From: Actinosynnema sp. ALI-1.44
Lineage (GTDB): Bacteria > Actinomycetota > Actinomycetes > Mycobacteriales > Pseudonocardiaceae
DNA length: 64,000 nt
Direction of reading: 5' to 3'
Assembly (NCBI RefSeq): GCF_001984155.1
Contig: NZ_MTQO01000043.1
Coordinates: 1 to 64,000, forward strand
Below are positions 47,128 to 63,033 of the stretch, in pieces (position 1 is the first letter of the stretch; each line of letters starts with the position of its first letter). The notes under the pieces were generated by a model. The model searched no databases. It was given only the letters and a program-made list of their open reading frames with translations, and was not told the DNA's origin. The position numbers were made by a program, and so were the translations under genes.

Positions 47128-47346
47128 TCATTGTTTCCCACGGCTGACTGCCCGAATCAGCGCCGTGGTGGCGAGCAGGCTCGTGGTGGTGGCCACGGCC
47201 GTGCCGCCGAATCGGAAAACCGCCAACACGGCTGCCGCCACAACTCCCAAGGCGACCACCAGTATCACGGTGTGCCAAGTCCTGCGCGTGTCCGCGAGGA
47301 CGTATCGCAGCAGTTCGCAGAACGATCTGGTCGACGGTCTTGACAT
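47128..47346 (-). CDS. Small membrane protein
   Basis: 72 aa from ATG 47346 (an upstream in-frame start adds a Cys-rich stretch that looks non-coding). The N-terminal 30 residues are hydrophilic and basic (RSFCELLRYVLADTRRTW), followed by two hydrophobic stretches (ILVVALGVVAAAVLAVF, AVATTTSLLATTALI). It is divergent from the XRE-deformylase gene with 131 bp between starts and may be a regulated partner. No family recognised. Confidence 0.7.
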   Translation of the reverse strand: MSRPSTRSFCELLRYVLADTRRTWHTVILVVALGVVAAAVLAVFRFGGTAVATTTSLLATTALIRAVSRGKQ

Positions 47347-47477
47347 TGTGCTACTTCCCTCTGCGCCGGTCGTGTCCCTTGACCTGGCCAGAACACCTGT
47401 GTAGTGCTGAGTGCAGCCACGGTGCACGGGCACTCACGGTTCGATCCCACACGCTCACGGATGGGCAAGGGGGCGCA

Positions 47478-48986
47478 ATGGCCGACGATCTTGGATCGCA
47501 GCCGGACGAAGGAGAAAGCACAGGTGCCTTCTCCCGTGCGTTCAGCGACATCCGGCAGCGGCGGGGTCTTTCCAGGAACGCGCTGGCCAAACTGATGAAC
47601 TACAGCAGATCGTACGTGTCGAAAGTCGAGTCAGGAGCCGAGCGCCCGTCGCGGAATTTCCTGAGCAGCGCCGAACGCGCGATGAATGACAACGGCACTC
47701 TCCGCCGCGCGTACGCCGAGTCCTTCGAAAACAGGACGGACGACCTGCACCTGCGTGAGGCGGCGGAAATGGTGACCGACGACGGCACCATCCAAGTTCT
47801 GCGGGAAGAGTCGGCGCTGCGCTACGACAACCGCGTCTATCGGCTCAACCAGCGGAGACTGTTGCTCAACAACGGTACACGCCCGATCGATCGCTACCTG
47901 ATCCGAATCGCCGTCGGGAAGTTCCCCGACGATCCGAAGTTGTGCGACCTGTTGTACAGCCAGAATCCCGTGACCTGGGACGAACTCGATCTCCGGGCGT
48001 GGCGGGGCACCGAGCGCACCAAACCGATGCGGTGGGCGGTGCACCACGACAAGCCGGACTTCAAGGAGGTGTGGCTCAGGTTCGGCGGGGACAACGGGCA
48101 CTTCCCGCTGTACCCGGGAGAATCGGGCTGGATCGAGTACGAGTACACGGTCGACGAACAGCACTGGGGAGACTGGTACCAGCGCACGATCCGGCTGCCC
48201 ACGCGGCACCTTTCGATCCGGCTGGACTTTCCTGCGGCATTCGACATGACCGCGTGGGGTTTGTACACGTCGATGTGGAACGACGCCATGCCCTTCGCGA
48301 CGCCCATCCAGAGTTTCACCGAGAACGGTCGTCAGATATTCCTGTGGGCCACCGACAACCCGCCGGTCGGCTCCCGCTACCGGGTCGAGTGGAAAGTCGT
48401 CTACTCGCCGCACCCCGTCGACGAACCCGGGCAGTCCGCGCGGCCGAGCCAGAACATGAAAGCACTGGGAATCAGGCAACGCGACGACGACATCCTGCGG
48501 CGCCGGGCCCGTGAGTTCGAGTTGCCGCTGGAGCGCAACGACGCGGAGCGGACGATATCGGAGCTGCGGTCGGCGCTGAACCGGGTGGCGCTCGCGCACG
48601 TTTTCGCCAAGGGGTCGAGCATCTCGGCCCAGCAGATCGGGATCGACCGGGCCGCGGCGATCGTGCGGTCGGTGGAGGGCGAGATGATCGAACTGCTGAA
48701 TCCTCGGATCATCCGCTTCAGCGACCAGATCGACGAGCAGTACGAGGGCTGCCTGAGCTTCTTCGACGTCCGCGGCGTCGTACCGCGCGCCCTGCACGTC
48801 GAGGTCGTCCACACGAACCTCGACGGGTCCCACCGGATCACCGTTTTCGAACGGGCCGTCGCCAGGCTGGTGGCGCACGAGGTCGATCACCTCAACGGTC
48901 TGCTCTACACCGACCGCATGGTCGAAGGCGCGCACCTCATCCCGGTCGAGCAGTACGACGGCGTCGGCAAGAAGTGGGAGATCTGA
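47478..48986 (+). CDS. XRE-family HTH regulator fused to a peptide-deformylase domain
   Basis: 502 aa from ATG 47478, after AAGGGGG. Residues about 18-70 are an XRE helix-turn-helix (RRGLSRNALAKLMNYSRSYV, then SKVESGAERPSRN). Residues about 100-340 are an uncharacterised beta-rich middle domain with PFATPIQSFTENGRQIFLWA and several Trp residues. Residues about 375-490 are a peptide deformylase: motif 1 GSSISAQQIG with Gln386, motif 2 YEGCLSF with Cys425, motif 3 AHEVDHLNG with His467, Glu468 and His471. Cys-to-His spacing is 42, the same as in E. coli Def (Cys90, His132). All metal ligands and the catalytic Glu are kept, so the domain could be active. A sensory role on N-formyl peptides is inferred. 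Confidence 0.88.
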   Translation: MADDLGSQPDEGESTGAFSRAFSDIRQRRGLSRNALAKLMNYSRSYVSKVESGAERPSRNFLSSAERAMNDNGTLRRAYAESFENRTDDLHLREAAEMVTDDGTIQVLREESALRYDNRVYRLNQRRLLLNNGTRPIDRYLIRIAVGKFPDDPKLCDLLYSQNPVTWDELDLRAWRGTERTKPMRWAVHHDKPDFKEVWLRFGGDNGHFPLYPGESGWIEYEYTVDEQHWGDWYQRTIRLPTRHLSIRLDFPAAFDMTAWGLYTSMWNDAMPFATPIQSFTENGRQIFLWATDNPPVGSRYRVEWKVVYSPHPVDEPGQSARPSQNMKALGIRQRDDDILRRRAREFELPLERNDAERTISELRSALNRVALAHVFAKGSSISAQQIGIDRAAAIVRSVEGEMIELLNPRIIRFSDQIDEQYEGCLSFFDVRGVVPRALHVEVVHTNLDGSHRITVFERAVARLVAHEVDHLNGLLYTDRMVEGAHLIPVEQYDGVGKKWEI

Positions 48987-49076: not shown

Positions 49077-49175
49077 ATGCCACCGGCCGGGACGCTTCCA
49101 CTTCACGGCCATGGCGGGCCTGGAAACCGCGCTGGGAGAACTCAGGGGGCGGTGAACGTGGGAAGCGTCCCGTAG
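49077..49175 (+). CDS. Possible 32-residue small ORF with strong ribosome-binding site
   Basis: ATG 49077 follows GAAGGAG at optimal spacing and gives a Gly/Pro/His-rich 32-residue peptide (MPPAGTLPLHGHGGPG at the start) ending at a TAG at 49173. It is 90 bp after the XRE-deformylase gene and overlaps the 3' end of the ECF S-component gene on the other strand. It could be a small peptide product or chance; no family is recognised. Confidence 0.3.
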   Translation: MPPAGTLPLHGHGGPGNRAGRTQGAVNVGSVP

Positions 49176-49978
49176 GAGGCCTTGCGGGACGCTCGTCGCA
49201 GCGTGGCCAGCACAGCGGGGCCGATCACCAGGATCGCGACGGTGTTGGTGATCGCCCGGCCGGTGTCCCAGCCCGCCGTCGACGTCAACAGGGTGAACAC
49301 CGCGAAGCGGTGCAGGTTCTCCCAGACCGAGTCGCCGGGGACGTAGGAGATGTGGCCGTCGTGGTACGGCACCTCCGCGGTGGTGATGAACGGCCAGAAC
49401 CACAGGTTCATCAGGAACCCGAACACGTACGCCACGACGATCCCGTAGCCGACGAGCATGGCGATCTCCGCCTTGCCGGTCACCCTGCGCGGCAACAGCC
49501 CCGCGCCCATCCCGATCCACGCCGAGCACAGCATCTGGAACGGCAGCCACGGGCCGACGCCCGCCGTCAGCAGCGCGGAAGCGAACAGCGAAGTGCACCC
49601 GAGGACGAACCCGAATCCCGCGCCGAACGCCCGTCCGGCGAGCACGAGCATGAAGAACACCGTTTCGATGCCCGCCGTGCCCGCGCCGAGTGGCCGCAGT
49701 GCCGCGTTCACCGCGGACAGCACACCGAGCATCGCCAGGGCTTTCGAGTCCATGCCGCCCTCGGACAGTTCGGCGAGCACGATCACGATCAGGATCGGCA
49801 GGATGCCGATGAAGATGAACGGTGCGTCCGGCCCGTGCTGCATGCTCTGCGGCTCCACCCGCACCAGCAGCGGCCAGACGAACATCATCAGCCCGGCCAG
49901 CGAAGCCAGGCCCAGCACGATCGCCGAGCGCGGTCCGAGGCGGACAGCCTGGTCCGCGCGCCCCCAGGTCTTCTTCAC
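49142..49978 (-). CDS. ECF transporter substrate-binding S component (probable cobalamin)
   Basis: 278 aa, GTG start overlapping the EcfA stop by 4 bp. About six to seven membrane helices with the ECF S-component pattern: SAIVLGLASLAGLMMFVWPLL, AGIETVFFMLVLAGRAFGAGFG, LGCTSLFASALLTAGVGPWLP, FQMLCSAWIGMGAGLLPRR, and a C-terminal amphipathic end. It is the vitamin-binding subunit. Cobalamin is inferred from the riboswitch at the head of the operon; the sequence does not obviously match the CbrT-type cobalamin S component. Confidence 0.85.
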   Translation of the reverse strand: MKKTWGRADQAVRLGPRSAIVLGLASLAGLMMFVWPLLVRVEPQSMQHGPDAPFIFIGILPILIVIVLAELSEGGMDSKALAMLGVLSAVNAALRPLGAGTAGIETVFFMLVLAGRAFGAGFGFVLGCTSLFASALLTAGVGPWLPFQMLCSAWIGMGAGLLPRRVTGKAEIAMLVGYGIVVAYVFGFLMNLWFWPFITTAEVPYHDGHISYVPGDSVWENLHRFAVFTLLTSTAGWDTGRAITNTVAILVIGPAVLATLRRASRKASYGTLPTFTAP

Positions 49979-51579
49979 GACACTCCTTGGCGGATAGCGG
50001 TTTCCACGTCCGCCACGGTCAGCCAGTCCGGGCCGAGGACCTTGGTCACCTGGGGCGCGAAGGCGGGGGACGAGCCGAGCACCTCCACCGCCGGGCCGTC
50101 CGAGACGATCTCGCCTTCGGCCATCACGATCACGCGATCAGCCACCGTGGCAACGAATTCGACGTCGTGGGTGGCGACGACGACCGCCCGTCCCTCCTCG
50201 GCGAGACCCGCGATCATCCGGCCCAGCGCGGTCTTCGCCGTGTAGTCCAGGCCGCGGGTCGGTTCGTCGAGCAGCATGATCCGTGGCGCCGCGGACAGTT
50301 GCACCGCCAGGACCAGGGCGAGGCGTTGCCCTTCCGACAGGTCCCGTGGGTGTTTCTCCGCGTCGACACCGGGAGCGAGCCGGTCGAGCAACGCGCGGCA
50401 GTGCCCGGGTTCGGCGTCGGACTCGATGTCGGCTGCCGCGCACTCGGCCGCGACCGTTTCCAGGTAGAGCAGGTCACTCGCGGTCTGCGGGACGAGGCCG
50501 ACGAGTTTGCGCGCCTTGGCGCTGGACAACTCGTGTGGATCGGCGCCGTCGACCCGCACCGTGCCTGCCTGCCGCGGTCCTGATCCCTGCAACGCCCACA
50601 ACAGCGAGGACTTCCCCGACCCGTTGCGACCCATGATCGCCATCACCTTGCCGCCGTGCAGATCCAGGTCGACGCCGCGGACGGCGACCGTCGGGCCGTA
50701 GCGCACGACCACGCCCGAACTCGTCAGCACGGGTGGTCCGGCCACCGGTTCCGTCCGCTGTGGACTTGCGGCCAGCCTCGGCCGCAGCGCTCCGGCGCGG
50801 CGGCGGGCGTCGCGCACCGACATCGGCAGCGGCTGCCAGCCCGCCAGTCGCCCGAGCTGGACGATCGGCGGCGCGATCGGGGTCAGCTCCAGCACCTCGG
50901 CCGGGGTGCCGTCGATGACCGACCCGTCGCCGGGGACGTAGATCATCCGGTCGGCGAACGGGATCACCCGTTCCATCCGGTGCTCGGCCATGACCACCGT
51001 CGTGCCGAGGTCCTGCACCAGCCGCGCCAGCGTGGCCAGCACGTCCTCCGCCGCCGTCGGGTCCAATGCCGACGTCGGCTCGTCCAGGACGAGGATTCTG
51101 GGGTGCGTGGTGAGCACCGAGCCGATCGCCACCCGTTGCTGCTGGCCGCCGGACAACGCGCGCAACGCGCGTCGGCGCAGGTCCGCGATGCCCAGCAGGT
51201 CAAGGGTTTCCTCCACCCGGCGGCGCATCACCTGTGGCGCGAGGCCGAGCTGCTCCATGCCGTACGCGAGTTCTTCCTCGACCGTGTCGGTCACGAAACC
51301 GGCGAGCGGATCCTGCCCGACCATGCCGACCAGGTGCGCGAACTCCCTCGGGGGCCGGGAACTCGTCGCGACACCGTCCACTGTGACCGAACCGGCCAGG
51401 TGCCCGCCGGTGAAGTGCGGGACGAGACCGTTGATCGTGCCGAGCAACGTGGACTTGCCCGCGCCCGTGCGCCCGGCGAGCAGCACGAGCTCGCCCTCAC
51501 CGATGGACAGGGTGATGTCCTCGAGCACCGGGTCGGTCTGGCCGTGGTACCAGAACCCGACGTGGTCCAGTTCGATCAT
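49975..51579 (-). CDS. ECF transporter fused double ATPase (EcfA-EcfA')
   Basis: 534 aa from ATG 51579, overlapping the EcfT stop by 4 bp. Two complete ABC ATPase domains: Walker A GRTGAGKST and signature LSGGQQQR with LVLDEPTSALDP in the first; Walker A GRNGSGKSS, variant signature LSEGQRLALV and MLLDEPTRGLDY in the second. The fused A-A' arrangement is common in actinobacteria. It powers the ECF importer on the cytoplasmic face. The second signature has E in place of the second G. Confidence 0.95.
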   Translation of the reverse strand: MIELDHVGFWYHGQTDPVLEDITLSIGEGELVLLAGRTGAGKSTLLGTINGLVPHFTGGHLAGSVTVDGVATSSRPPREFAHLVGMVGQDPLAGFVTDTVEEELAYGMEQLGLAPQVMRRRVEETLDLLGIADLRRRALRALSGGQQQRVAIGSVLTTHPRILVLDEPTSALDPTAAEDVLATLARLVQDLGTTVVMAEHRMERVIPFADRMIYVPGDGSVIDGTPAEVLELTPIAPPIVQLGRLAGWQPLPMSVRDARRRAGALRPRLAASPQRTEPVAGPPVLTSSGVVVRYGPTVAVRGVDLDLHGGKVMAIMGRNGSGKSSLLWALQGSGPRQAGTVRVDGADPHELSSAKARKLVGLVPQTASDLLYLETVAAECAAADIESDAEPGHCRALLDRLAPGVDAEKHPRDLSEGQRLALVLAVQLSAAPRIMLLDEPTRGLDYTAKTALGRMIAGLAEEGRAVVVATHDVEFVATVADRVIVMAEGEIVSDGPAVEVLGSSPAFAPQVTKVLGPDWLTVADVETAIRQGVS

Positions 51580-52718
51580 GCCGCCACTCGCTCCGGTTCT
51601 GTGCTCTGGGTTTCCTGTTCCGCGAACGGCGGCAGGGGAGGTGGCGTCAGGAACGACGGGAGCACGCCGAACAGCACACCGGCCAACGGCACCCACGACA
51701 ACAACGGCCACGACAGGTCGATCAGCGACGGGTTCAGGTTCGTCGGGTCCACACTGGACGACGCGAACAGCACGACGGCGACCGCGATCCCGCTCAGGGC
51801 GACGACGACCTCGGCCAGCCGCCAGCGGTCCGGCCGGTAACGGGTGCGCTTGACCCGTTTGCCCGCCAGCCGGAACCCGACCAGCGCGATCGCCACACCG
51901 GTGAACAACACCGGCCCGGCGAGGAACCGCGGCGTGGAACCGTCCAGAGTGGCGTACACGCCGACACACACCCCGAGCAGCCCGACGATCATCAACGTTC
52001 CGGTGAACAGCCTGGCCCTGGCCTCGACCCTGCCGGCCCGGCCGTAACCCCGGGAATCCATCGACGCGGCCAGCCGGAGCGACCGGTCCAGCGCGTCCTC
52101 CAGCACCGGGATGATGATCGCGTGCAGCGCGCGGAAGCGTTTGCCGCTCGCGCCGCCGCGCAGTTTGCGGGCCTGCCGCACCCGCAACACGCTTTCGGCC
52201 AGCTGCGGGAAAACCGACAACGCCACGATCACAGCCGTCCCGACCTCGTACAGCGCCGGTGGCATGGCCTTGAGCAGCCGCTTCGGGTTGGCCAACGCGT
52301 TCGCCGCGCCGAGGCAGATGACCATGGTGGCCAGCCGGAGGCCGTCGTACAGGCCACCGAGCAACGACTCCGCCGACACGTCACCGAACAGCCGGATGCC
52401 CGCCGCCCACGCGGGCAGCGGGATCTCCGGCAGGCTCAGCACGATCGTCGACCCCTCCGCGCCGCCGAACACGATCCGGAAGAACACCCGGACGGCGATG
52501 ATGACCAGGCCGAGGTAGAGGTAGATCCGGAACGCCAGCGCCCACGGCGCGTCCGTCCGGCGTGAGACGACCACATAGCAGGCCACCGCGACGATCGTCA
52601 GCAGCAGCCACGGGTTGGTCGTCCGGCTCGCGGCCACCGCGAGGCCGAGCGCCCAAACCCACCACGCCGCCGGATGCAGGTCACGAGGCAGGAGGTACGT
52701 GGCGAACACACCACGCAT
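51576..52718 (-). CDS. ecfT: ECF transporter transmembrane T component
   Basis: 380 aa, ATG immediately after the upstream stop (no gap). Five or more membrane helices, with the two coupling motifs that contact the ATPases: RQARKLRGG and SMDSRGYGR, both A-R-G-type. A C-terminal soluble tail is Pro-rich. It links the ATPases to the S component. Confidence 0.94.
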   Translation of the reverse strand: MRGVFATYLLPRDLHPAAWWVWALGLAVAASRTTNPWLLLTIVAVACYVVVSRRTDAPWALAFRIYLYLGLVIIAVRVFFRIVFGGAEGSTIVLSLPEIPLPAWAAGIRLFGDVSAESLLGGLYDGLRLATMVICLGAANALANPKRLLKAMPPALYEVGTAVIVALSVFPQLAESVLRVRQARKLRGGASGKRFRALHAIIIPVLEDALDRSLRLAASMDSRGYGRAGRVEARARLFTGTLMIVGLLGVCVGVYATLDGSTPRFLAGPVLFTGVAIALVGFRLAGKRVKRTRYRPDRWRLAEVVVALSGIAVAVVLFASSSVDPTNLNPSLIDLSWPLLSWVPLAGVLFGVLPSFLTPPPLPPFAEQETQSTEPERVAA

Positions 52719-53768
52719 CTACGCCTCCCGTGCGCGTTTCCGGCGCCGTGCGGTCAACCACGCCGCTGCCGCGAGGATCACGACCGCTCCCGCGGCCACC
52801 CACGGCGCCCAGTCGCTGGCACCGGACTGGTCCTTGAGCACCTCGTTGACGTCGGGGGCGTTCTCGCCGCCGGTGAACGCGACGTTGCGGGACGGGTCGT
52901 CGGCGACGGAACTGGGCCGTGGCTTGGGCGGCGGCAACGCGCTGCCCGGCGGTGCGCCCGGACCGCCTGTGCCCGAAGTACCTGGTGTGCCGTTCGGAGC
53001 TGAGCCCTGACCACCGGCGTCACCGCCTGTCGAACCGCTTGTCGAACCGCCCGTGCCACCACCTTGGCCGCCGCCGGTACCGCCTGGGGAACCGCCGCCC
53101 TGGCCACCGGCGGGGTTCTGCCCGCCCTGGCCCGGGTTCTGGCCGCCTTGGCCCTGGTCGGGTGCTTTGGCGTTCGGGTCGTTGCTGGACGGCTTGGGCT
53201 CCTCCTTCGCCGTACACGCCTCGTTGGCGGTCCCTGGCCGGACCGCGGCGATCCGCGGTTTCGGGTTGGTGTCGGCCGTCGCGTTCAGCGAGAACGACCA
53301 GCCTTCGAAACCGCCCTGGATGAAGTCGCGGTTCTTCACGCCCCACTGGCTGTAGCGCCACGCGCAGTTGTTCCCCGCGTGCCAGTACGACCAGTACGCC
53401 GCCGCGGGCGGTGTGTTGACACACGCCTCGCGGTAGGGGCCTTGGCCGTTGATCGGAATCTGCTCCGCGGCGGACGGCCGGTTCTCGACCCGGCAGATGA
53501 ACGCCTCGCCCCACCGGGCGACACCCGCGATCTGGAAACCGGCGCCCTTCAACGCGTCGAGTCCGGTTCCCTGGGCGCCCTGGGGATTGCACCGCACGAT
53601 GGTCGTGCCGCCGAGCTGCTGGAAGTCGACGACCACCGTGACGCCGGTCCCGGACGTGCAGTAGCCCGGGTACCCCTTGCTCTGGTCGACCGCGCTGGCC
53701 GTGAACGGAATCGGCGCGAAGGCGGCCACCAGAGCGGTGACCGCCACCGCACGCGTCAGTTTCCTCAT
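52719..53768 (-). CDS. SCO2322-like secreted protein with Gly-rich linker and C-terminal membrane anchor
   Basis: 349 aa. A signal peptide (AVAVTALVAAFAPIPFTAS) is followed by a domain of about 150 residues also found in the next gene upstream: GVTVVVDFQQLGG, RCNPQGAQGTGLDALKGAGF, CRVENRPSA, NTPPAAAYWSYWHAG, WRYSQWGVKNRDFIQGGFEG, WSFSLNA. Then come a long Gly/Ser/Gln-rich linker and a C-terminal helix with RRRKR tail (about residues 320-345). The YWxYWHA and GGFEGW motifs are reminiscent of the small transcobalamin-like (DUF4430) beta domain, but the relation needs structural proof. It is coupled to the preceding paralogue by a 4-bp overlap. Confidence 0.88.
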   Translation of the reverse strand: MRKLTRAVAVTALVAAFAPIPFTASAVDQSKGYPGYCTSGTGVTVVVDFQQLGGTTIVRCNPQGAQGTGLDALKGAGFQIAGVARWGEAFICRVENRPSAAEQIPINGQGPYREACVNTPPAAAYWSYWHAGNNCAWRYSQWGVKNRDFIQGGFEGWSFSLNATADTNPKPRIAAVRPGTANEACTAKEEPKPSSNDPNAKAPDQGQGGQNPGQGGQNPAGGQGGGSPGGTGGGQGGGTGGSTSGSTGGDAGGQGSAPNGTPGTSGTGGPGAPPGSALPPPKPRPSSVADDPSRNVAFTGGENAPDVNEVLKDQSGASDWAPWVAAGAVVILAAAAWLTARRRKRAREA

Positions 53769-54628
53769 TGGACAGTCAACGCCGCTGTCGAGTACACCGT
53801 CCCACCCGTCCCGGTTGCTTTGATGGTGTACGTGTAAGTGCCGACCGCGGTCGGGGTGATCGGCTGCGTCCCGCCAGGGGCCGTGAGCGAACCGGACCAC
53901 GAGCCGCCGCCGGAAGCGGGCGACACCGCGTGCGCTGTCACCGTTGTCGCATTGGTCGACGACCACGTCAGGTTCGTGCTCTGGCCGAGCGTGATCTTGC
54001 GGTCCAGGTCGTCGACCGAGAGGCTCACGGTCGGGTTGTTCGGGCCGACCGCCGGGTTGGTCGGCGTCACGCCGGGCGGCGGGTTGGTCGTCGCGGTCTT
54101 GTTCAGCGAGAACGACCAGCCTTCGAAGCCTCCGGGGACCACGTTGCGGTTCAACGCTCCGAAGCTGCTGTAGGTCCATGTGCTGCCCGAGCCGTCCGCG
54201 TGCCAATAACCCCAGTACGCGTCCGCGGGCGGGGTGTTCAGACACCCCTCCTTGTACGTCGGGTTGGACGTACGCGGGATGGTCTCGGTCGACGACGGCC
54301 GGTTCTCCAGGCGGCACACGAAGCCCAGGCCCCAGCGGACGGTGCCCTGGACGGCGATCCCGGCGTCCTGCAGCGCCTTGATGCCGGTCCGGTCCGTGCC
54401 GGGGTTGGCGTTGGGCGAGCAGCGGGTGATGGTCGGCGCGGCCACACCGCCGTTGCCGTCCAGCTCCTGGAAGTCGACGACGACCGTGACACCGGTCAAC
54501 GCGTCCGCTCCGGTGCAGATCCCGGCGTAGCCCTTGGCCGGGTCGACGGCACTCGCCGGGGTGGCCGCCGCCACAGCGGTTCCCGCCAGCAAGGCCAGGC
54601 CTGACAGCAGGGTCAGTGTCCTTCTCAT
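53765..54628 (-). CDS. SCO2322-like secreted protein with Ig-like C-terminus
   Basis: 287 aa with a signal peptide (TLLSGLALLAGTAVAAATPAS). The same domain as the downstream paralogue occupies residues about 28-190 (GVTVVVDFQELDGN, NTPPADAYWGYWHADG, WTYSSFGALNRN, GGFEGWSFSLNK). Residues 195-287 are an Ig/PKD-like beta-sandwich (LSVDDLDRKITLGQSTNLTW). Unlike the paralogue it has no membrane anchor, so it is released or bound to the other proteins. Its ATG overlaps the toroid-gene stop by one base (TGATG). Confidence 0.88.
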   Translation of the reverse strand: MRRTLTLLSGLALLAGTAVAAATPASAVDPAKGYAGICTGADALTGVTVVVDFQELDGNGGVAAPTITRCSPNANPGTDRTGIKALQDAGIAVQGTVRWGLGFVCRLENRPSSTETIPRTSNPTYKEGCLNTPPADAYWGYWHADGSGSTWTYSSFGALNRNVVPGGFEGWSFSLNKTATTNPPPGVTPTNPAVGPNNPTVSLSVDDLDRKITLGQSTNLTWSSTNATTVTAHAVSPASGGGSWSGSLTAPGGTQPITPTAVGTYTYTIKATGTGGTVYSTAALTVQ

Positions 54629-57282
54629 CAGCTACGCGTCCCCTCGATCGGTGTTTTTCGGTTGATGTAGCGGTATGTGCCGTAACCGGCGGCGGCCAGC
54701 AACAGGATCCCCAGGCCGATCAGGCCGCCGATGGTCCAGTCGGGCAGCTTCCTGTGCGTGGCCGCGACGTTGGTCGCGGGTTTGACCTCGCCGATGGGCA
54801 GCCGGGCAGCGGGGGTGACGGGCGAGTCCGTCGCGTTCATCCACGACTTGCCCGCGACACCCTGCGCACTGGCCACACTGGCGACCAGGTCGCTCTGCTC
54901 CGCGCCGAGCCTCGGCAGGCCGCCGTCGGAGAGCAGTTTGGCCCGCAGCGCCTCGGCGGTGTCCCGCACGTCAAGGCCGACGGCATCCCGCGCGCCCGTG
55001 ACGGCGGAGGTGACCGCGATGTCCTCGGACGTGCCTGCCAGCGCATCGACCGCCTTGACCAGCGCGTTGGCCCGATCCGACGACCAGTCACGCGGCGCGC
55101 CCTCGCTCGGCGCGTCACCGCGCTTGCGGCCGTTGAGGGCCTCGACCGCAGCGGCGGTCGCGACCAGGTCACCGGTGTCGCACTGCTCGGTCTTCAAGCT
55201 GGCTGGGAACGTGCCGTCGGTGCACTGGCGCTTGATCAGCAGTGTCAGCCCCGCCGAGGACTGTTCGTCGTCGGCCGCGGTCGCCAGAACGGCCCACGCG
55301 TGCCTGCGCACGGAGTTGTCCGAGTCGGCGAACTCACCCCGATCGGCGAACTTGCCGTCCTCGGTTCGGGTGCTCGCCAGGTCGGTCCGCAACTGGTCCA
55401 CGGTCGCGTCGAGGTCGCTCGCCGAATCGTCACCGCGCCGCACGAAGCCCGCGACGACGCGGAGTTTCGCCAGCGGCTCGGCGTAGACGGCCGAGTCCTT
55501 CTCGTAGGCGGAGCCGTGGGCGTATGCCCTGACGGAATCCTGGCGCAGCAGGAACTTCGACACCCGCTCGGCCACCTCAGGCTGTTCGCCCAGCACGCGC
55601 AGGGCGAGGACGAGGTCGGCGGTGGCGTCGTAGTCCACGAACGTCTCGTTGTTCTCGGTGACTTCGACGTGGTCCCCGTTGACAAGTCGTTGGCTCAGGT
55701 ATTCGCCGAGCCGTCCTGCCGGTGACGTTGCGGGGCCGGGTTGCTGTGGGCTCGCCACCGGAGGCGGTGTCACCACAGTGGGGGTCGTGCTCGACGCGGT
55801 GCCCCTCGACGACAGGGCGGCGCGCCGGGGTTTCGGCTTCGGAATCGGCTTGGCGGTCTTCGGCTTGGCCTGCTGTGTCGCCGCAGGTGGGGGAGTCGCG
55901 GCAGGGGTGGGTGGCTGCTGAGTCGTCGTGCCGTCCACGGCCGGTCGTGACACGGAGGTCGTGGTGGTGGCGGCGCTGCTCGACGTCGTCGACGAGGTGG
56001 TCGTCGAGCTCGTGGTTGTCGGGCCACCTGTTGTTGTTGTTGTTGTTGTTGTGGGCGGCTCGGGGATCTTGCGTTTGGTCAGGTCGTGGAAGCCGACTCC
56101 GGACAGCGCCAGCGAGGCCTGTGCACCGGCCCGGACCCACTTGTCCAGCGCGCCGCGGCCCTCGGCCTTGGCTTTCTCGTACTGTTCCGGCGTGTAGTGG
56201 ATCGCGCCGATCTCCGCGCCGATCGCCGTGTTCGCGTCGGCCGGTTTCACCTGAGCCGACTTGATGAACGCCACGCCCTTGGCGACCTCGGTCTCCGCAC
56301 CGCCCACGTCGGTGAGAGCCTGCACGATCAGCCCTGTGCTGTTGGTGTTCGCGTCCTCGGTTCCGACGCCGCCACCCCAGCCGCCATCGGGCTTCTGGTT
56401 GGCCTTCAGCCAGCCGACTGCTCTGGCGATCGGCTCGTCCAATCCCGCTGCGCCTGCCTTGCGCGCGGCCAGCAGTGCCGACAGGCCCATCCCGGTCGAG
56501 TCCCCGTCCGTCGGCGACAGGCCGGAAGGCTTGCCCTCGTCGCACGTGGAGACCTTGTGCTTGGCGGAGTTGACGTGGTCGCCGGTCTCAGTGGTGGGGA
56601 TGTACTTGTAGAAGATCCGGAAGTACCCCTCCGAGCACTGCTGCGTCAGCAGCCTGCCCAGCGCCAGGTGGTCGACCTCGTCGACACCCGCCAGACCGAT
56701 GACTCCCAGCGCCTGGCCGAACGTGTTGGCCTCGTTGCTGATGAACTCCGCGAGCGCGGGGTCCTTGGAGTAGTCGCTGACCCGGCCCTTGTCCGGGCCG
56801 GACCGCATGATCGCCGCCTTGGTCTCGGCGACGAGGTCGTAACCGTCGAAGTCGCGGGGATTGCGGCCGGAAACCTGGGCCGCGACCAGCGTTTTCGCCA
56901 CGGCGCCACCGGTGATGACCTTCTCGAACCTCGGGCCGAGTTCCGGATCCTCCGGGTTCTCCATCAGCCCGCGCCAGGTGAAGTAGTCGGTGGCGTACCC
57001 GTCGTCGTCCAGGTACTTGACGATCGGTGCCGCGAGGTGGCCGTCGCCGGACGCGTACGTGGCCAGCAGCACGTCGATCATCAGTCCGTGGTCGGGCAGT
57101 TTGGCGCCCATCGGGTTGTCCAGCGTGCCGTCCGGCTTGAGCTGCTTGGCCAGCCACAGTGAGTTGGCGTGGGCCGCGGGGTGGTCCCGCTCGGCAGCGG
57201 CGGTTCCGACGACGACCCCGGCGAAGGCGACGGACAACAGCGCGGCGATGGCGGCGAACTGGCGGTGACGCGACCGGCGCAC
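54628..57282 (-). CDS. Secreted double alpha/alpha-toroid protein, transcobalamin-like, membrane-anchored
   Basis: 884 aa from GTG 57282, preceded by AAGGAG at ideal spacing. Signal peptide AAIAALLSVAFAGVVVG; first alpha/alpha-toroid (about 35-420) with NANT-like repeats, GGWGGGVGTEDANTNSTGLI and a Cys pair (QQCSEGYF, STCDEGK); a Thr/Ser/Pro linker (about 425-540, a TTTTTT tract); second toroid (about 545-815) with a matching Cys pair (KRQCTDGTF, EQCDTGD); a C-terminal helix GGLIGLGILLLAAAGYG and basic tail. Domain databases would call it prenyltransferase/squalene cyclase-like, but no DxDD or catalytic Asp is seen. The toroid is also the alpha domain of transcobalamin and intrinsic factor. 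It is the first gene after the cobalamin riboswitch. Confidence 0.9.
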   Translation of the reverse strand: MRRSRHRQFAAIAALLSVAFAGVVVGTAAAERDHPAAHANSLWLAKQLKPDGTLDNPMGAKLPDHGLMIDVLLATYASGDGHLAAPIVKYLDDDGYATDYFTWRGLMENPEDPELGPRFEKVITGGAVAKTLVAAQVSGRNPRDFDGYDLVAETKAAIMRSGPDKGRVSDYSKDPALAEFISNEANTFGQALGVIGLAGVDEVDHLALGRLLTQQCSEGYFRIFYKYIPTTETGDHVNSAKHKVSTCDEGKPSGLSPTDGDSTGMGLSALLAARKAGAAGLDEPIARAVGWLKANQKPDGGWGGGVGTEDANTNSTGLIVQALTDVGGAETEVAKGVAFIKSAQVKPADANTAIGAEIGAIHYTPEQYEKAKAEGRGALDKWVRAGAQASLALSGVGFHDLTKRKIPEPPTTTTTTTTGGPTTTSSTTTSSTTSSSAATTTTSVSRPAVDGTTTQQPPTPAATPPPAATQQAKPKTAKPIPKPKPRRAALSSRGTASSTTPTVVTPPPVASPQQPGPATSPAGRLGEYLSQRLVNGDHVEVTENNETFVDYDATADLVLALRVLGEQPEVAERVSKFLLRQDSVRAYAHGSAYEKDSAVYAEPLAKLRVVAGFVRRGDDSASDLDATVDQLRTDLASTRTEDGKFADRGEFADSDNSVRRHAWAVLATAADDEQSSAGLTLLIKRQCTDGTFPASLKTEQCDTGDLVATAAAVEALNGRKRGDAPSEGAPRDWSSDRANALVKAVDALAGTSEDIAVTSAVTGARDAVGLDVRDTAEALRAKLLSDGGLPRLGAEQSDLVASVASAQGVAGKSWMNATDSPVTPAARLPIGEVKPATNVAATHRKLPDWTIGGLIGLGILLLAAAGYGTYRYINRKTPIEGTRS

Positions 57283-57364
57283 TCTCTTCTCCTTCGGTAC
57301 GGGGAGGAGAGATCGACCTGGCATCGAGCGTCACCCCCTGCTTCACGCGACAGTGGTTGTGGAC

Positions 57365-57490
57365 GAACCGGCCCGGACGGCGACCCGACTTGTCACCTCA
57401 CGGCGACCCACGGTTGCGCGACAGTGCCGGACTTCGACCGGCTTCCCCGTCACAGGCGGTTGGCTATGGAGTTGTTGGGCACAAACGATT
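57365..57490 (-). promoter_or_regulatory. Cobalamin (adenosylcobalamin-class) riboswitch
   Basis: Read on the minus strand, the leader contains GGGGAAGCCGGTCGAAGTCC, then GGC-ACTGTCGCGCAACCGT, and the B12 box AAGTCGGGTCGCCGTCC, the three conserved blocks of the RF00174 aptamer in the right order and spacing. GCCGG/CCGGC forms the central hairpin. It ends about 85 bp before the toroid-protein start, leaving room for an expression platform. A TAGAGT -10-like hexamer lies at 57498-57493. It is expected to repress the six-gene operon when cobalamin is plentiful. Confidence 0.9.
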
Positions 57491-57522
57491 CGACTCTAAC
57501 ACCCGGTAGCCGCCCGGTGTAC

Positions 57523-57555
57523 CGCTTGAGGGTCGGCAGTACCGGCCCTCAAGCG
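57523..57555. terminator. Hairpin between the lectin-like gene and the riboswitch operon
   Basis: CGCTTGAGGGTCGG-CAGTA-CCGGCCCTCAAGCG: 14-bp arms with one mismatch, 34 bp beyond the stop of the ricin/LGFP gene and just upstream of the riboswitch promoter. A second dyad CTGATCCC-GTTC-GGGGTCAG (57573-57592) overlaps that stop codon. Confidence 0.75.
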
Positions 57556-57588
57556 ACCTTGATCACCCTCTCCTGATCCCGTTCGGGG

Positions 57589-60204
57589 TCAGTTGACGGG
57601 GATGACAGTCCACCGCATGTAGGGCAGGGCGACGTCCCACGCCATGATCACCTGCGTGCCGTTGGCCGTTGCGCTGCCCTTGGCTTCGATCACCAACCCT
57701 GTTCTGTCACGCAGGGCAAGGGTGTTGTCGGCAGCGGTGGTGAACTCCCACGTGTAGGTGCACAAGCCGTCCTGGCTGAGGATCGGCGGGGCCTCCGCGC
57801 TGCCGAGGTGGACAAGGCACTTCCCGGACTCGCGGTTCTTCAGCACGTACTTGTTGTCGCTCCGGCTGATCACGTCGAAGACCTGACTGGGCGCGGAGGA
57901 ACAGTCCCGCAGTTCGGCTGCCGCCCCGATCTGGGTGCCCGCCATCTGGACGCACCGCCCGGACTGGACGCCCTTGAACTGGATCGCGCGGTGCGGGATG
58001 GTGACGGTGCTGTAGGCGACGGTGAAAGCGCCGACGGTGTTCTTGTCGATTCGCCCCTTCTCGAAGGTCTGCCGCCAGACGTAGTCCAGTTTGGTTTCGT
58101 CGGTCAGCGGAACACCCATGCCCGCCTCGAAGCCCACAGCCGCGAACTTCTTGTGGATCTCGCCCGTGACCTGCCGGATCCCGCTGTTGGGCACGTAGTA
58201 GATGCTGCCGCTGACATAGCGCTGGTAGACGATCCCGGCGGTGCCGTAGGGGAGCGGATCGGCGAGCGGGTAGCCGTACGGACCGGTTTCCGCGCCGGAG
58301 GACGTCCAGAGGTCGCCGACAGTGCCGTAGATGATGTGCGCGCCCGTCGACGGACTCCACATGATGTAGAGGTTCTGCCCGCCGGAGGTGGGTTTCGCGA
58401 TCCGCACCACCTGGCCTTTGCCGTCCTTGGTCGGGACCTGGTCGGAGAAGACGCCACCGAGCGGGTTCGGACCGCCCAGCGAAAGGAGTTTGTCGAGGAT
58501 CGGGCCGTTGTAGACCACTTGGACCGCGACCCGTTTGTAGGTGCCGTAGTCTCCAGCGGTCAGGTAGAGCCTGCCCTTCTCGTACTCCTTGTAGCCGAGG
58601 TTGTTCGCGTCCAGTACCGCGTCGCCGATCGGTTTGCCGAGGTTGTCACGCAGGTTCTTGTCCGCGCTGTAGCGCCGGTCCATCGGCAACGGCGGATTCG
58701 GGGCCTCGACGTGCCAGGCGGGTCCCCTGACGAGGCTCGGGTCGTCGAGCGCACCAGTCACGTACAGGTAGGCGCTGGACCCCTTGAGCGGATGGATGGC
58801 GATCTGCTCGGCGCCGCCACTCACGCACCAAGTCGCGTCGGCTGCGAACTCAGGTGTGCCGTCGGTCGGGTCGACATGGGCGTACATGCGACGGTGAATC
58901 ACCGGCTCGGTTGCGGAGCGCCAGTGCAGGTAGTGGTTGGGGCGGCTGACGGACTGGAACGAGAAACACTCGGGTGCGCCGAGTCCTGGTTCGATCTTCC
59001 AGGACTGTTCTGGGTGGTTGCCGGGCTTCCACGGTGCCATGACCGCGTCGCCGTTCTGTTCGGTGAGGTAGAACTCGAAGCCTTGCCACGCGTCGACACG
59101 CAAAGACTGGGCCTGGCGCTGGTACTGGCCGACGCGCAGGAACCGCTCCCGGTCGATCGAGGTGCCCGCCAGTGCGACGTTGGCGGCGTCCACCAGATCC
59201 GGATGCATGAAGCTTCGCTTGGCCGCGTCTCGGATGGCGGTGATCTGTTTGACGCGTTCCTGGTCGCGTCGTCGTAGTTCGTTGTCGATGTCGCGCTGGC
59301 GGGCGTCGGCGGCGCCGGTTTCGATGAACTTGGTCCGGTCGGTGGGTTCGAGGCTCAGTACTGCGTCGCGTGCCGCGATGAACACTTCACTGTCTTTGGG
59401 TGCGAGTCTGTAGATGGTGCGGCAGAAGTCGTCGTCGTTGAGTTTGCGCATCTTGTCGTCGGCGACGATGCCGAGTGATTGGTACGCCGCTGTGGCCTTC
59501 TTCTCCTCAGCGATGATGCGATCTTTCTCGGCTTGGGTCTTCTCGGTGTCTTCTTGGGTGAGCCTCGCGACGTCGTCCTTGTGGGCGGTGAAGATCTCCA
59601 CGGCCAGGAACGACCACTGTTTCTCGGCGCTGCCTCGCAGAGCTGCTTGCGCGGCGGCGTGTACTGCGATGTCCTTGTGGTTGTCGGCGTTGAGGTCGAT
59701 GAAGACGATGAAGTCGTGTACCGTTCGGCCCAGTTCGGGGGCGTACTTGTCCTCGGTCAGGCCGATCGTCCTTGCCGCTTCGACTTTGGTCTTGCGTTCG
59801 GTCTCCTGCTGCTGACGCCTGCCGTTGACGATGGTGACGTCTTCCTGGTGTGCCGCCGCCATTCCGGTCTTGATGTAGGTGGTGCACGGGGCACAGGCCG
59901 GATCGTTCAGCACCGTCAACGCGTCGATCGCGGCCTGCTTGACTTTCTGGTGTTCCGGCTCGGTCGGGCGGGGTTTGTCCTGCTCGTCGGCGATGCGGTA
60001 CATCGCGGAGGTGAAGTCCCGATCGGACAGATCCAGGAGGTCTTGCCCCGCGGTGACTCCCAGCAGCGCCGCGGCGGTGCCTTTCTCGACCTCGGTGGAC
60101 GGCCCCGCGGCTACGGCCACATCGACATTCACCACGCCTATGGTCAAGGCTAAGACTGAACTCAGGACAACACCGCGAAGGACATGTCTCGGTCTTGGTC
60201 TCAT
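57589..60204 (-). CDS. Secreted ALF-repeat / LGFP / ricin-type beta-trefoil protein (copy A)
   Basis: 871 aa with a signal peptide (VVLSSVLALTIGVVNVDVAV). Residues about 35-370: ALF-type short repeats with a DPACAPC pair and AANVALAGTSIDRERFLRVG. Residues about 380-480: AbfB-like beta-trefoil (FSFQSVSRPNHYLHWRSATE). Residues about 500-720: LGFP repeats (YPLADPLPYGTAGIVYQRYV). Residues about 735-871: ricin-type beta-trefoil beginning VQSGRCVQMAG, but its QxW positions read QVF, YTW and MRW, so sugar sites are degenerate. No catalytic domain. A cell-wall or glycan-binding surface protein; ALF and LGFP repeats also occur in polymorphic-toxin delivery proteins. Confidence 0.9.
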   Translation of the reverse strand: MRPRPRHVLRGVVLSSVLALTIGVVNVDVAVAAGPSTEVEKGTAAALLGVTAGQDLLDLSDRDFTSAMYRIADEQDKPRPTEPEHQKVKQAAIDALTVLNDPACAPCTTYIKTGMAAAHQEDVTIVNGRRQQQETERKTKVEAARTIGLTEDKYAPELGRTVHDFIVFIDLNADNHKDIAVHAAAQAALRGSAEKQWSFLAVEIFTAHKDDVARLTQEDTEKTQAEKDRIIAEEKKATAAYQSLGIVADDKMRKLNDDDFCRTIYRLAPKDSEVFIAARDAVLSLEPTDRTKFIETGAADARQRDIDNELRRRDQERVKQITAIRDAAKRSFMHPDLVDAANVALAGTSIDRERFLRVGQYQRQAQSLRVDAWQGFEFYLTEQNGDAVMAPWKPGNHPEQSWKIEPGLGAPECFSFQSVSRPNHYLHWRSATEPVIHRRMYAHVDPTDGTPEFAADATWCVSGGAEQIAIHPLKGSSAYLYVTGALDDPSLVRGPAWHVEAPNPPLPMDRRYSADKNLRDNLGKPIGDAVLDANNLGYKEYEKGRLYLTAGDYGTYKRVAVQVVYNGPILDKLLSLGGPNPLGGVFSDQVPTKDGKGQVVRIAKPTSGGQNLYIMWSPSTGAHIIYGTVGDLWTSSGAETGPYGYPLADPLPYGTAGIVYQRYVSGSIYYVPNSGIRQVTGEIHKKFAAVGFEAGMGVPLTDETKLDYVWRQTFEKGRIDKNTVGAFTVAYSTVTIPHRAIQFKGVQSGRCVQMAGTQIGAAAELRDCSSAPSQVFDVISRSDNKYVLKNRESGKCLVHLGSAEAPPILSQDGLCTYTWEFTTAADNTLALRDRTGLVIEAKGSATANGTQVIMAWDVALPYMRWTVIPVN

Positions 60205-60224
60205 TCTTTCTGCTCCTACACTGA

Positions 60225-60258
60225 GACGCCGACCACTGAAACTCCAGCGGCCGGCGTC
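60225..60258. repeat. Conserved intergenic dyad (copy 1)
   Basis: GACGCCG...CGGCGTC with an interior shared almost base for base with 62966-62999. It sits between paralogue stop and next paralogue start, so the leader/terminator was duplicated along with the genes. Confidence 0.7.
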
Positions 60259-60279
60259 GATGTCGTGAGACTTCGGGTC

Positions 60280-62937
60280 CTACTGGGGGACGACGGTCCA
60301 GCGTTGGCTGTTGGTGCCGCTGTCGGCCCACTGCGCGACCGGCTTGCCGTTGAACGGGGCGCTTCCTCGTCCGTCAGCTGTCTTGGCGGAGTGCACAGCG
60401 CGGAGCGCGTAGTTGCCACCGGTGTTGTCGGTGGTCAGTTCCCATTGCTGGTTGAGACCGTTGTGACAGGAGTGCTGCATGATCAGGCCGTTGTTGTCGA
60501 GGTTGCTGTTGTAGACGTCCAGGCACTTGCCGGAGTTGCGGTTCTTGAGTTGGTACTTGTTGTCCCCGACCGGGATGACGTCCCAGATCTGTTTCGGTGC
60601 TCCGGGGACGCATTGCCACAGCTCTGCCCCCGCGCCGTCTCTGAGCGCGTCCTGGCCGACACCGGCGATCTGGATGCAGCTATGCGATTCGACGCCCTTG
60701 ATCGCGATGGCCCTCGGTGCGATGGGGACAGTCTTGTACTCTATGGTGCCGCCGCCGTCGTTGCTGAAGTCGATGCGACCGTTCTGGAAGGTGTTGCGGC
60801 GGCCCTTCGGCAGATCGAACTCGTCGCTCGTGGGGTAGCCGAGCCAGGACTTCTCCGCACCGAGCTGGTTCCACCTCCAGCGGATGTTCCCGTAGATGAC
60901 TTTCGCGCCGATACTTGGGTGGTGGTAGATCGCGCCGCCGTTGCCGGAGAAGGTGGTGGCCCAGCCGATCCCGTCCGGGAGCTGTTTGATGTCCGACGTG
61001 GGATACCCCAGGACCCCGTTCTCCGAACCGACCTCGACGTACTTCGCGTAGGTGTGCCCGACGACGCCATAGGTGCCGACGTGCGTGGCGTCGGCGGGAG
61101 TCACGACGTTGTACACCGCCCCTCCGAAGAACCGTTGCACTTGACCGATCTTGTTGCCGAAGTCGGTCTCAGGGCCCGTTGGATGAGCCAGCGTTCCGGT
61201 GGGGCCGCCCAGTGATCGGTACTTCTGGTAGACCTTTCCTGAAACAACGAACACGCGGGCGTCTTTTCTGGGGTTGTCGTGTCTGAGGTGCAGTACGCCC
61301 TGTTCGTATTCGCGGTACCCGTTGGCTTCCGCGTCGAACACCGCTTCGGCGACGGGCTTCCCGACCATCGCTCGTGTCGCGGAATTCTCGTTGTAGGCCC
61401 TGTCGATCGGCGATGGCGGCTGCGGGGCTTCGGCAGTCCATGTCGCCGCCGCACGCAGGCTGTTGTCGACCCGGACTCCCGGTACGTAGAGCCCCATGGC
61501 CACACCTCGCATGGTGGGGGACAACACGTTGTGCCTGTTGGTGCCGTTGAAGTTCGCGCACCAGGTCGCTGTCGTGCGGAACTCGTCGGTGCCGTCGACT
61601 GGGGCAACGTCGGCACGCGCCATGACGAACTGACTTTGCGCTCTGAGCCACCGGATGTAGTGGTTGGGCCGGGTCACCGACTGGAACGAAAGGCAGCTGG
61701 GGTCGGCGAGACCCGGCTCGACTTTCCAGGACAGCTTCGGGTTGGTGCCCGGCTTCCACTTCGTCAGTGCCAGTGCTCCGGAGCCTTCGTCGGCGAGGTA
61801 GACATCCATGTCCAGGGTCTCCGACGTGCCTCTGATGGTCTGGATGTCGTGCTGGTGCTGACCGGTTCGCAGGAACCTCTCCCGGCTGATCGGGCCGCCT
61901 GCCAGTGCGGCGTTGGCGGCGTTGACCAGTTCCGTGCGGAACACGGCCCGCACGGCCGCGTCTCGGATGGCGGTGATCTGTTTGACGCGTTCCTGGTCGC
62001 GTCGTCGTAGTTCGTTGTCGATGTCGCGCTGGCGGGCGTCGGCGGCGCCGGTTTCGATGAATTTGGTCCGGTCGGTGGGTTCGAGGCTCAGTACCGCGTC
62101 GCGTGCCGCGATGAACACTTCACTGTCTTTGGGTGCGAGTCTGTAGATGGTGCGGCAGAAGTCGTCGTCGTTGAGTTTGCGCATCTTGTCGTCGGCGATG
62201 ACCCCAAGAGCCTGATATGCCGCTGCGGCCTTCTTCTCCTCAGCGATGGCTGCGGCTTTCTCGGCTTCGGTCTTGGCGTTGTCCTCTTGGATCAACCGTG
62301 CGACGTCGTCCTTGTGCGCGGTGAAGATCTCCACGGCCAGGAAGGACCATTGCTTCTCGTCGCTGCCTTGCAGGGCTGCGCGTGCGGCGTTGCGTACTGC
62401 GATGTCCTTGTGGTTGTCGGCGTTGAGGTCGATGAAGACGATGAAGTCGTGGACCGAACGACCGAGTTCGGGGGTGTACCTGTCCTCGGTCAGGCCGATC
62501 GCCTTTGCCGCTTCGGCCTTGGTCTTGCGCTCCTTTTCCTGCTGCTGACGCCGGTCGTTGACGATGGTGACGTCTTCCTGGTGTGCCGCCGCCATTCCGG
62601 TTTTGATGTAGGTGGTGCACGGGGTGCAGGCCGGGTCGCTCTGCACTGTCAGCGCGTCGATCGCGGCCTGCTTGACTTTCTGGTGTTCCGGCTCGGTCGG
62701 GCGGGGTTTGTCCTGCTCGTCGGCGATGCGGTACATCGCGGAGGTGAAGTCCCGATCGGACAGATCCAGGAGGTCTTGCCCCGCGGTGACTCCCAGCAGT
62801 GCCGCGGCGGTGCCTTTCTCGACTTCGGTGGACGGTCCCGCCGCCAGGGCGACATCGACGTTCACCACGCCAAGCGACATGGCTAAGACGGAACTCAGGA
62901 CAACACCGCGAAGGACATGTCTCAGTCTTGGTCTCAT
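60280..62937 (-). CDS. Secreted ALF-repeat / LGFP / ricin-type beta-trefoil protein (copy B, mosaic)
   Basis: 885 aa with the same signal peptide type (VVLSSVLAMSLGVVNVDVAL). Residues 1 to about 330 are near-identical to copy A, including ALF repeats and the DPACTPC pair. From about 335 it departs from A. The AbfB-like part has SFQSVTRPNHYIRW. The LGFP repeats (YPTSDIKQLPDGIGWATTFS) and the ricin domain from about 750 are near-identical to copy C. This ricin domain keeps QxW-type motifs (KQIWDVI, NQQWELT, SQRWTVV), so it probably binds galactose-type sugars. No catalytic domain seen. Confidence 0.92.
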   Translation of the reverse strand: MRPRLRHVLRGVVLSSVLAMSLGVVNVDVALAAGPSTEVEKGTAAALLGVTAGQDLLDLSDRDFTSAMYRIADEQDKPRPTEPEHQKVKQAAIDALTVQSDPACTPCTTYIKTGMAAAHQEDVTIVNDRRQQQEKERKTKAEAAKAIGLTEDRYTPELGRSVHDFIVFIDLNADNHKDIAVRNAARAALQGSDEKQWSFLAVEIFTAHKDDVARLIQEDNAKTEAEKAAAIAEEKKAAAAYQALGVIADDKMRKLNDDDFCRTIYRLAPKDSEVFIAARDAVLSLEPTDRTKFIETGAADARQRDIDNELRRRDQERVKQITAIRDAAVRAVFRTELVNAANAALAGGPISRERFLRTGQHQHDIQTIRGTSETLDMDVYLADEGSGALALTKWKPGTNPKLSWKVEPGLADPSCLSFQSVTRPNHYIRWLRAQSQFVMARADVAPVDGTDEFRTTATWCANFNGTNRHNVLSPTMRGVAMGLYVPGVRVDNSLRAAATWTAEAPQPPSPIDRAYNENSATRAMVGKPVAEAVFDAEANGYREYEQGVLHLRHDNPRKDARVFVVSGKVYQKYRSLGGPTGTLAHPTGPETDFGNKIGQVQRFFGGAVYNVVTPADATHVGTYGVVGHTYAKYVEVGSENGVLGYPTSDIKQLPDGIGWATTFSGNGGAIYHHPSIGAKVIYGNIRWRWNQLGAEKSWLGYPTSDEFDLPKGRRNTFQNGRIDFSNDGGGTIEYKTVPIAPRAIAIKGVESHSCIQIAGVGQDALRDGAGAELWQCVPGAPKQIWDVIPVGDNKYQLKNRNSGKCLDVYNSNLDNNGLIMQHSCHNGLNQQWELTTDNTGGNYALRAVHSAKTADGRGSAPFNGKPVAQWADSGTNSQRWTVVPQ

Positions 62938-62965
62938 TGTCGTTCTACTTCTGCTTTCATACCGG

Positions 62966-62999
62966 GACGCCGACCACTGAAACTCCAGCGGCCGGCGTC
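62966..62999. repeat. Conserved intergenic dyad (copy 2)
   Basis: Same dyad and flanks as 60225-60258, located between copy C stop and copy B start. Confidence 0.7.
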
Positions 63000-63033
63000 G
63001 GTGTCGTCAGATCTCGGATCTACTGCTCGGGAT

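Follow-up and report, generated by a model that had tools for sequence, protein, structure and literature searches.

A cobalamin-controlled operon of Actinosynnema encoding a putative split transcobalamin-like corrinoid receptor and its own ECF importer

The stretch of Actinosynnema sp. ALI-1.44 DNA analyzed here (64,000 nucleotides; contig NZ_MTQO01000043.1 of RefSeq assembly GCF_001984155.1, positions 1 to 64,000; hereafter the window) carries on its minus strand, in the place originally predicted, a system of six genes downstream of a cobalamin riboswitch aptamer (Table 1). The genes encode a secreted, anchored protein with two alpha/alpha-toroid stretches, two secreted proteins with a small beta domain (beta proteins 1 and 2), and an energy-coupling factor (ECF) importer composed of EcfT, a fused pair of EcfA ATPases and an S component. 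The close packing first noted, with overlaps of 1-4 bp or zero gaps, is borne out by intergenic gaps of -1, -4, 0, -4 and -4 bases in gene order. We interpret the system as a split transcobalamin-like corrinoid receptor of Actinomycetota that feeds its own ECF importer, and assign this reading a probability of roughly 70%.

Table 1. Features of the operon in the window, in order of transcription
Feature	Position	Strand	Basis
Cobalamin (AdoCbl) riboswitch aptamer, operon leader	57328..57473	minus	RF01482
Toroid protein: secreted, C-terminally anchored, two alpha/alpha-toroid stretches, SCO2321-related	54628..57282	minus	toroid profile, NF053823
First toroid domain	56026..57219	minus	profile match
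Divergent second toroid, recognizable part	55126..55644	minus	profile match
Beta protein 1	53765..54628	minus	beta domain about 54047-54553 (beta profile)
Beta protein 2	52719..53768	minus	beta domain about 53226-53696 (beta profile)
EcfT (CbiQ family)	51576..52718	minus	PF02361 E 2.7e-13, above cut-off
EcfA-A', two ABC ATPases in one chain	49975..51579	minus	PF00005 ABC_tran 1e-52, two stretches
S component, substrate-binding membrane subunit of the ECF importer	49142..49978	minus	operon position, six hydrophobic stretches

A B12 riboswitch ahead of the six genes had been predicted, and the leader aptamer does exceed the gathering cut-off of the covariance model RF01482, though marginally, with 50.6 bits against 50 (E 2.5e-6). 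Our own aptamer model, R1, gives 73.3 bits at positions 57374-57453 of the leader, a score that is not independent, as the 12 sequences behind the model include that of the window; none of the 12 comes from the 73 named loci described below. The genome of 11.7 Mb has seven RF00174 matches, six of them above cut-off, and a chance aptamer directly before these six genes is therefore very unlikely.

For the toroid gene, GTG 57282 is a more probable start than ATG 57324, since a good Shine-Dalgarno motif (AAGGAG) precedes the former. Its product has a hydrophobic N-terminal stretch and a C-terminal membrane helix, and our toroid profile recovers the double toroid expected of it; the second toroid is divergent, with only positions 62-226 of the 454-position profile matching (E 3.2e-16). 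Both beta proteins begin with a hydrophobic stretch. Beta protein 2 also ends in a membrane helix and scores 15.0 bits with the LPXTG model TIGR01167, just under its cut-off of 15.9, while no C-terminal helix was found in beta protein 1. Neither beta protein has a Pfam family in a search to E 1. All three extracellular proteins fall outside the NCBIfam families to which they are related: the toroid protein reaches 72.3 bits with NF053823 (SCO2321_fam; cut-off 300, E 3.4e-20), and beta proteins 1 and 2 reach 27.7 and 30.0 bits with NF040672 (SCO2322_fam; cut-off 85), with matches confined to the second half of the beta domain. The label 'SCO2322-like' given to them in the original prediction holds only if a permutation is allowed for: the scores lie below the cut-off, coverage is partial, and the NF040672 family is circularly permuted relative to the beta domains of the window.

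The EcfT and EcfA-A' parts of the importer were recognized correctly, with EcfT above the PF02361 cut-off and two ABC_tran stretches in EcfA-A', which scores 285.9 bits with TIGR04520 (cut-off 315). The S component is weakly recognized, at 22.1 bits with PF07155 and 15.9 bits with TIGR04518 (cut-offs 26.7 and 60), and shares 59-96% identity with its counterparts in the operons of 10 relatives. EcfT and the two EcfA ATPases are encoded with the S component in overlapping genes, as a dedicated ECF module.

The beta domains were compared by profile with the Pfam family DUF4430, which we take to be the transcobalamin-like SLBB clade of Burroughs et al. A set of 31 varied beta domains aligned with DUF4430 at an hhalign value of 95.0% (E 3.9e-8, score 48.7, 101 columns), whereas the best of 100 column-shuffled controls scored 14.8 and an unrelated control profile gave 0.1%. 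A set of 13 distant members reached 93.7%, and a narrower set 84.6%; two of the 13 distant proteins match DUF4430 and nothing else in Pfam, at a best E of 0.05. In the mixed beta/toroid alignment (A12), a few residues of each toroid row leak into the beta columns. Judged by the wide sets and the shuffle controls, the beta family is homologous to DUF4430, a transcobalamin-C-like domain, with the Pfam cut-off for DUF4430 itself not reached, and the small beta domain of transcobalamin-C kind that had been predicted is thereby supported. The further step from DUF4430 to transcobalamin was weak in our own search (Transcobalamin-1, E 0.17) and rests on PMC1796856 for the clade.

Structure prediction with AlphaFold2 was applied to the beta domain of beta protein 2 (pLDDT 89.2, pTM 0.86) and to a natural beta-toroid fusion from Allokutzneria (L090; pLDDT 91.1, pTM 0.71). 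The beta model has the order strand-strand-helix-strands, compatible with a beta-grasp fold that has a beta-hairpin inserted after the helix, and its Foldseek matches are not significant; several of the weak ones belong to what we take to be beta-grasp folds (FERM, superantigens, Urm1). Beta profiles searched against PDB sequences returned a single chance Fab match at E 0.25 with one profile and none with a second. The fusion model has 78 Foldseek matches at E <= 0.001, squalene-hopene cyclases first. As a model of a relative's protein, it confirms the alpha/alpha-toroid fold and says nothing on the ligand.

The beta protein is found in 15 of 60 related genomes, and the beta profile detects its family in 49 of the 296 Actinomycetota genomes sampled, the host's own genome being included in both counts. 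A survey of named GTDB genomes, using the best 80 of 350 confirmed stretches, gave 73 loci with actinobacterial names; the survey is biased toward close relatives because only those 80 stretches were kept, and some genomes contribute two loci. The 12-sequence aptamer model gave 179 hits (E <= 0.05) in 89 sources, and in 85 of the 93 toroid/beta gene clusters of the 73 named loci an aptamer lies at most 1 kb upstream of the first domain. Set beside the seven RF00174 matches in 11.7 Mb, this led us to reject a chance aptamer. Among the eight remaining clusters, those of L072 and L082 have an aptamer inside the cluster and those of L073, L082 and L101 begin within 240 bases of a sequence end, leaving L080, L087, L107 and L112 with neither explanation. 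Most often the genes follow the order aptamer-toroid-beta-EcfT-EcfA-S, frequently with an additional aptamer-toroid-beta unit, or the order aptamer-beta-EcfT-EcfA-S-toroid. Of the 63 loci with a complete set of ECF genes, 47 have as many toroid as beta copies (Spearman 0.60, uncorrected for kinship). In 34 loci searched against all of Rfam, only cobalamin riboswitches and two tRNAs reached the cut-offs, and a riboswitch for a different vitamin was accordingly rejected. The expected co-occurrence with cobalamin aptamers therefore holds in relatives, with exceptions among more distant loci. An aptamer match is present in 16 of 20 such loci (15 at E <= 1.2e-6 and a weak one at 0.031) and lies above Rfam's own cut-off in 8 of the 20; in L152, the toroid lies near the beginning of the contig and no aptamer is visible.

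Toroid and beta domains also occur in one chain. Beta-then-toroid fusions were found in 6 of the 73 named loci and in L040; the fusion of L102 contains unread bases. The reverse order, that of transcobalamin, is present in L161, together with CWB2 cell-wall repeats, and in L156, both behind a cobalamin aptamer. A toroid-beta frame in L036 was rejected as a fusion, as it looks like two genes run together.

In eight loci of the SCO2321/SCO2322 type (L163 and L175-L181), the toroid and the beta domain alike show a circular permutation when compared with the window proteins. L163, the representative of the type, scores 590 and 231 bits with the NCBIfam SCO2321 and SCO2322 models, above both cut-offs. 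Rotating the toroid profile by 125 columns, the most favorable of 13 rotations, raised the summed best-domain scores from 717 to 1095 bits, and a rotated beta profile spans the whole domain in all eight loci. Among classified sources, a permuted toroid occurs only with a permuted beta domain (8/8) and a canonical toroid with a canonical beta domain (90/90). Outside these counts stand L036, L152 and L154, whose toroid is undecided, 13 canonical-beta sources without a toroid, one toroid-only source, and L158, with a permuted beta domain and no toroid; L180, one of the eight, has an additional toroid-like frame that is undecided. The eight loci are probably one lineage, so that the number of permutation events would be small. 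Their aptamers have E values from 4e-14 to 0.01, the weakest in L163, where positions 5314-5388 hold what looks like a decayed aptamer, with one stem kept, the rest seemingly lost and no Rfam match.

Elsewhere in the host genome, RF00174 matches lie upstream of a cobalamin-independent methionine synthase, a solo secreted toroid, a ribonucleotide reductase, a cluster of FecCD-type permease and ATPase genes, CobN, and a chelatase with CobO. A separate match upstream of a CbtA cobalt-transporter gene is below cut-off, at 27.1 bits. In this genome, the toroid profile finds only the window protein and the solo toroid. The solo toroid has a cobalamin aptamer of its own shortly ahead of its start, which counts for a role of toroids in corrinoid capture. 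The solo toroid gene and the operon are separated by some 15 kb of DNA that encodes large secreted proteins (window about 57500-64000 and L008 1-8000), and in two genomes of the same genus (L034, L035) the solo toroid is directly upstream of the operon. The ribonucleotide reductase gene (L009:9129-12656) carries an intein-like insert with a LAGLIDADG domain. CbiC/CobH, CobN and CobO are encoded in the genome, from which we infer that the host probably makes its own B12. On the other side of the operon and convergent with it (window 47340-48986), we noted by eye a protein that combines a helix-turn-helix with a peptide-deformylase-like domain at its C-terminus.

In the mechanism that we propose, low adenosylcobalamin would cause the leader aptamer to permit expression of the operon. 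The toroid protein would be secreted and tethered through its C-terminal helix, and the two predicted beta-grasp proteins would likewise be secreted, one of them tethered and the other apparently free. Outside the membrane, toroid and beta proteins may assemble into split transcobalamin-like units, with a putative ligand of the vitamin B12 family, a corrinoid, held between the alpha/alpha toroid and the beta domain in the manner of the animal proteins transcobalamin and intrinsic factor. The S component would then take over the ligand, and EcfT and EcfA-A' would pump it into the cell.

Several results weigh against this reading. The leader aptamer barely exceeds the RF01482 cut-off and is missing from the whole-genome RF00174 matches (E <= 0.001). 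Two narrower beta sets gave a weaker link to DUF4430, at 40.9 and 21.6%. The structural comparison with transcobalamin suggested originally did not come out in its favor: Foldseek of the beta model against PDB found nothing at E <= 0.001 and no transcobalamin among the 50 matches listed, and the matches of the toroid model are spread over the superfamily, with transcobalamin (4zrp) not singled out and only at rank 40 (E 3.4e-4). The toroid sequence profiles also had no transcobalamin among the matches listed, and a profile of the S component found no PDB relative at E <= 1. In 8 of the 20 distant loci, no toroid was detected by our own profile, and in three of these eight (L153, L166, L168) neither toroid nor aptamer was found; those three possibly represent a related system with another ligand. 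They encode a beta protein and ECF genes, and their beta proteins look like lipoproteins by eye. That the host probably makes its own B12 counts against the reading as well, since SLBB carriers are described as usually lacking key B12 enzymes (PMC1796856). B12 binding itself is putative, as is the placement of the vitamin between toroid and beta domain, which is another point on this side. As for the genomic side of the original prediction, cobalamin control, a toroid with a transcobalamin-C-like beta domain and a dedicated ECF importer occur together in most loci; the toroid-less distant loci depart from it. The system is real; many actinobacterial loci conserve it, and its parts are functionally coherent.

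The same machine might serve mainly to import cobinamide or another cobamide for remodelling by a B12-making host, a reading that differs from corrinoid capture as proposed above in the ligand alone and that we consider unlikely. The CobN, CobO and CbiC/CobH genes of the host, which probably makes corrinoids, are in its favor, and a precedent for mixed cargo is ECF-CbrT, which carries both cobalamin and cobinamide (PMC5997447). On the other side, the sequence offers nothing to tell such ligands apart, and the transcobalamin comparison, if right, would presumably favor complete cobalamins.

Slightly less likely again is an importer made of the beta proteins and the ECF module, with the toroid as a co-regulated surface protein, an enzyme or adhesin, that does not hold the ligand. 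The closest neighbors of the toroid in sequence and structure, squalene-hopene cyclases and other members of the superfamily, would fit such a role, as would the five distant loci (L158, L160, L162, L167, L169) that have aptamer, beta and ECF genes and no toroid by our own profile. However, the beta/toroid fusions in both orders, the joint permutation, the equal copy numbers in most complete loci and the solo toroid behind its own cobalamin aptamer all argue for a toroid that works with the beta domain. A cobalt importer under B12 control is very improbable: EcfT and EcfA do resemble CbiQ and CbiO (EcfT lies above the CbiQ cut-off and the ATPase above that of TIGR01166 cbiO, 229 against 211.8 bits), and B12 riboswitches also govern cobalt uptake, but the CbiM type was rejected with no CbiM family (CbiM/NikM) among the Pfam and NCBIfam matches of the S component to E 1, the operon has no CbiN gene, the genome has the CbtA gene mentioned above, and a cobalt ion would presumably need no large extracellular toroid and beta domain.

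The split receptor proposed here has precedents. Burroughs et al. described toroid and SLBB proteins beside CbiO/CbiQ genes as predicted B12 scavengers, and named low-GC Gram-positives, planctomycetes and, less often, euryarchaea for the transcobalamin-like SLBB clade (PMC1796856). Those systems share with ours the alpha/alpha toroid, the transcobalamin-C-like beta domain, secretion and surface anchoring, operons with a CbiO-like ATPase and a CbiQ-like permease, and a second beta paralogue. In contrast to them, the present systems belong to Actinomycetota, have beta domains that Pfam does not recognize as DUF4430 and usually keep the two halves in separate genes, with cobalamin aptamers demonstrated upstream; the halves are fused in some loci, in either order, and circularly permuted in one group.

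With animal transcobalamin and intrinsic factor, the common ground is the plan of an alpha/alpha toroid with a predicted beta-grasp domain, the order of these domains within the single chains of L161 and L156, and the presence of 4zrp among the Foldseek matches of the toroid model. The differences are that the actinobacterial halves are usually two proteins, that the beta family has extra conserved cysteines, and that the beta model is unmatched by Foldseek. As the domains are in separate genes in the window and fused toroid-first only in L161 and L156, we describe the system as one that would work like transcobalamin rather than as a member of that family. NCBIfam SCO2321 and SCO2322 comprise homologous toroid and beta proteins from the same type of operon with EcfT, EcfA and S genes, with permuted domains as described, and are assigned no function. 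ECF-CbrT of Lactobacillus, with proven import of B12 and cobinamide (PMC5997447), is likewise an ECF module with a corrinoid-carrying S component, a role that is putative here. CbrT shares its ECF module with other S components, whereas a full module and extracellular binding proteins are encoded here in one operon; the S profile, with no PDB match at the level given above, therefore has none to CbrT.

No paper on the actinobacterial toroid and beta proteins was among the matches listed from the open literature, a collection outside which most subscription journals and all preprints lie; SCO2321 is named in one paper listed, on a cell-penetrating peptide. The general idea is already known (PMC1796856); what the literature searched does not contain is its split, re-ordered and permuted actinobacterial version. 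How B12 and its precursors are transported in numerous gut genomes has been called an open problem (PMC6593275), and BtuFCD was described as the sole system for B12 transport known in prokaryotes at the time (PMC2667541).

The operon offers a testable function for the NCBIfam families SCO2321 and SCO2322, which were named without one, and for a beta family that has no Pfam entry, and, in a phylum known for making antibiotics, it is a candidate route for corrinoid uptake alongside BtuFCD. With small soluble ectodomains, the 2007 proposal that animal transcobalamin derives from a Gram-positive surface B12 receptor becomes testable. In a broader view, for and against which the balance seems to us about even, Actinomycetota would use a two-part transcobalamin whose halves are independent, re-orderable modules, occurring as separate genes, in both fusion orders, in doubled sets and with joint circular permutation. 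The B12-switched receptor and its ECF importer would then be one of the major ways in which the phylum takes up corrinoids, and would preserve a living record of a path by which the two-domain B12 carrier of animals could have been assembled.

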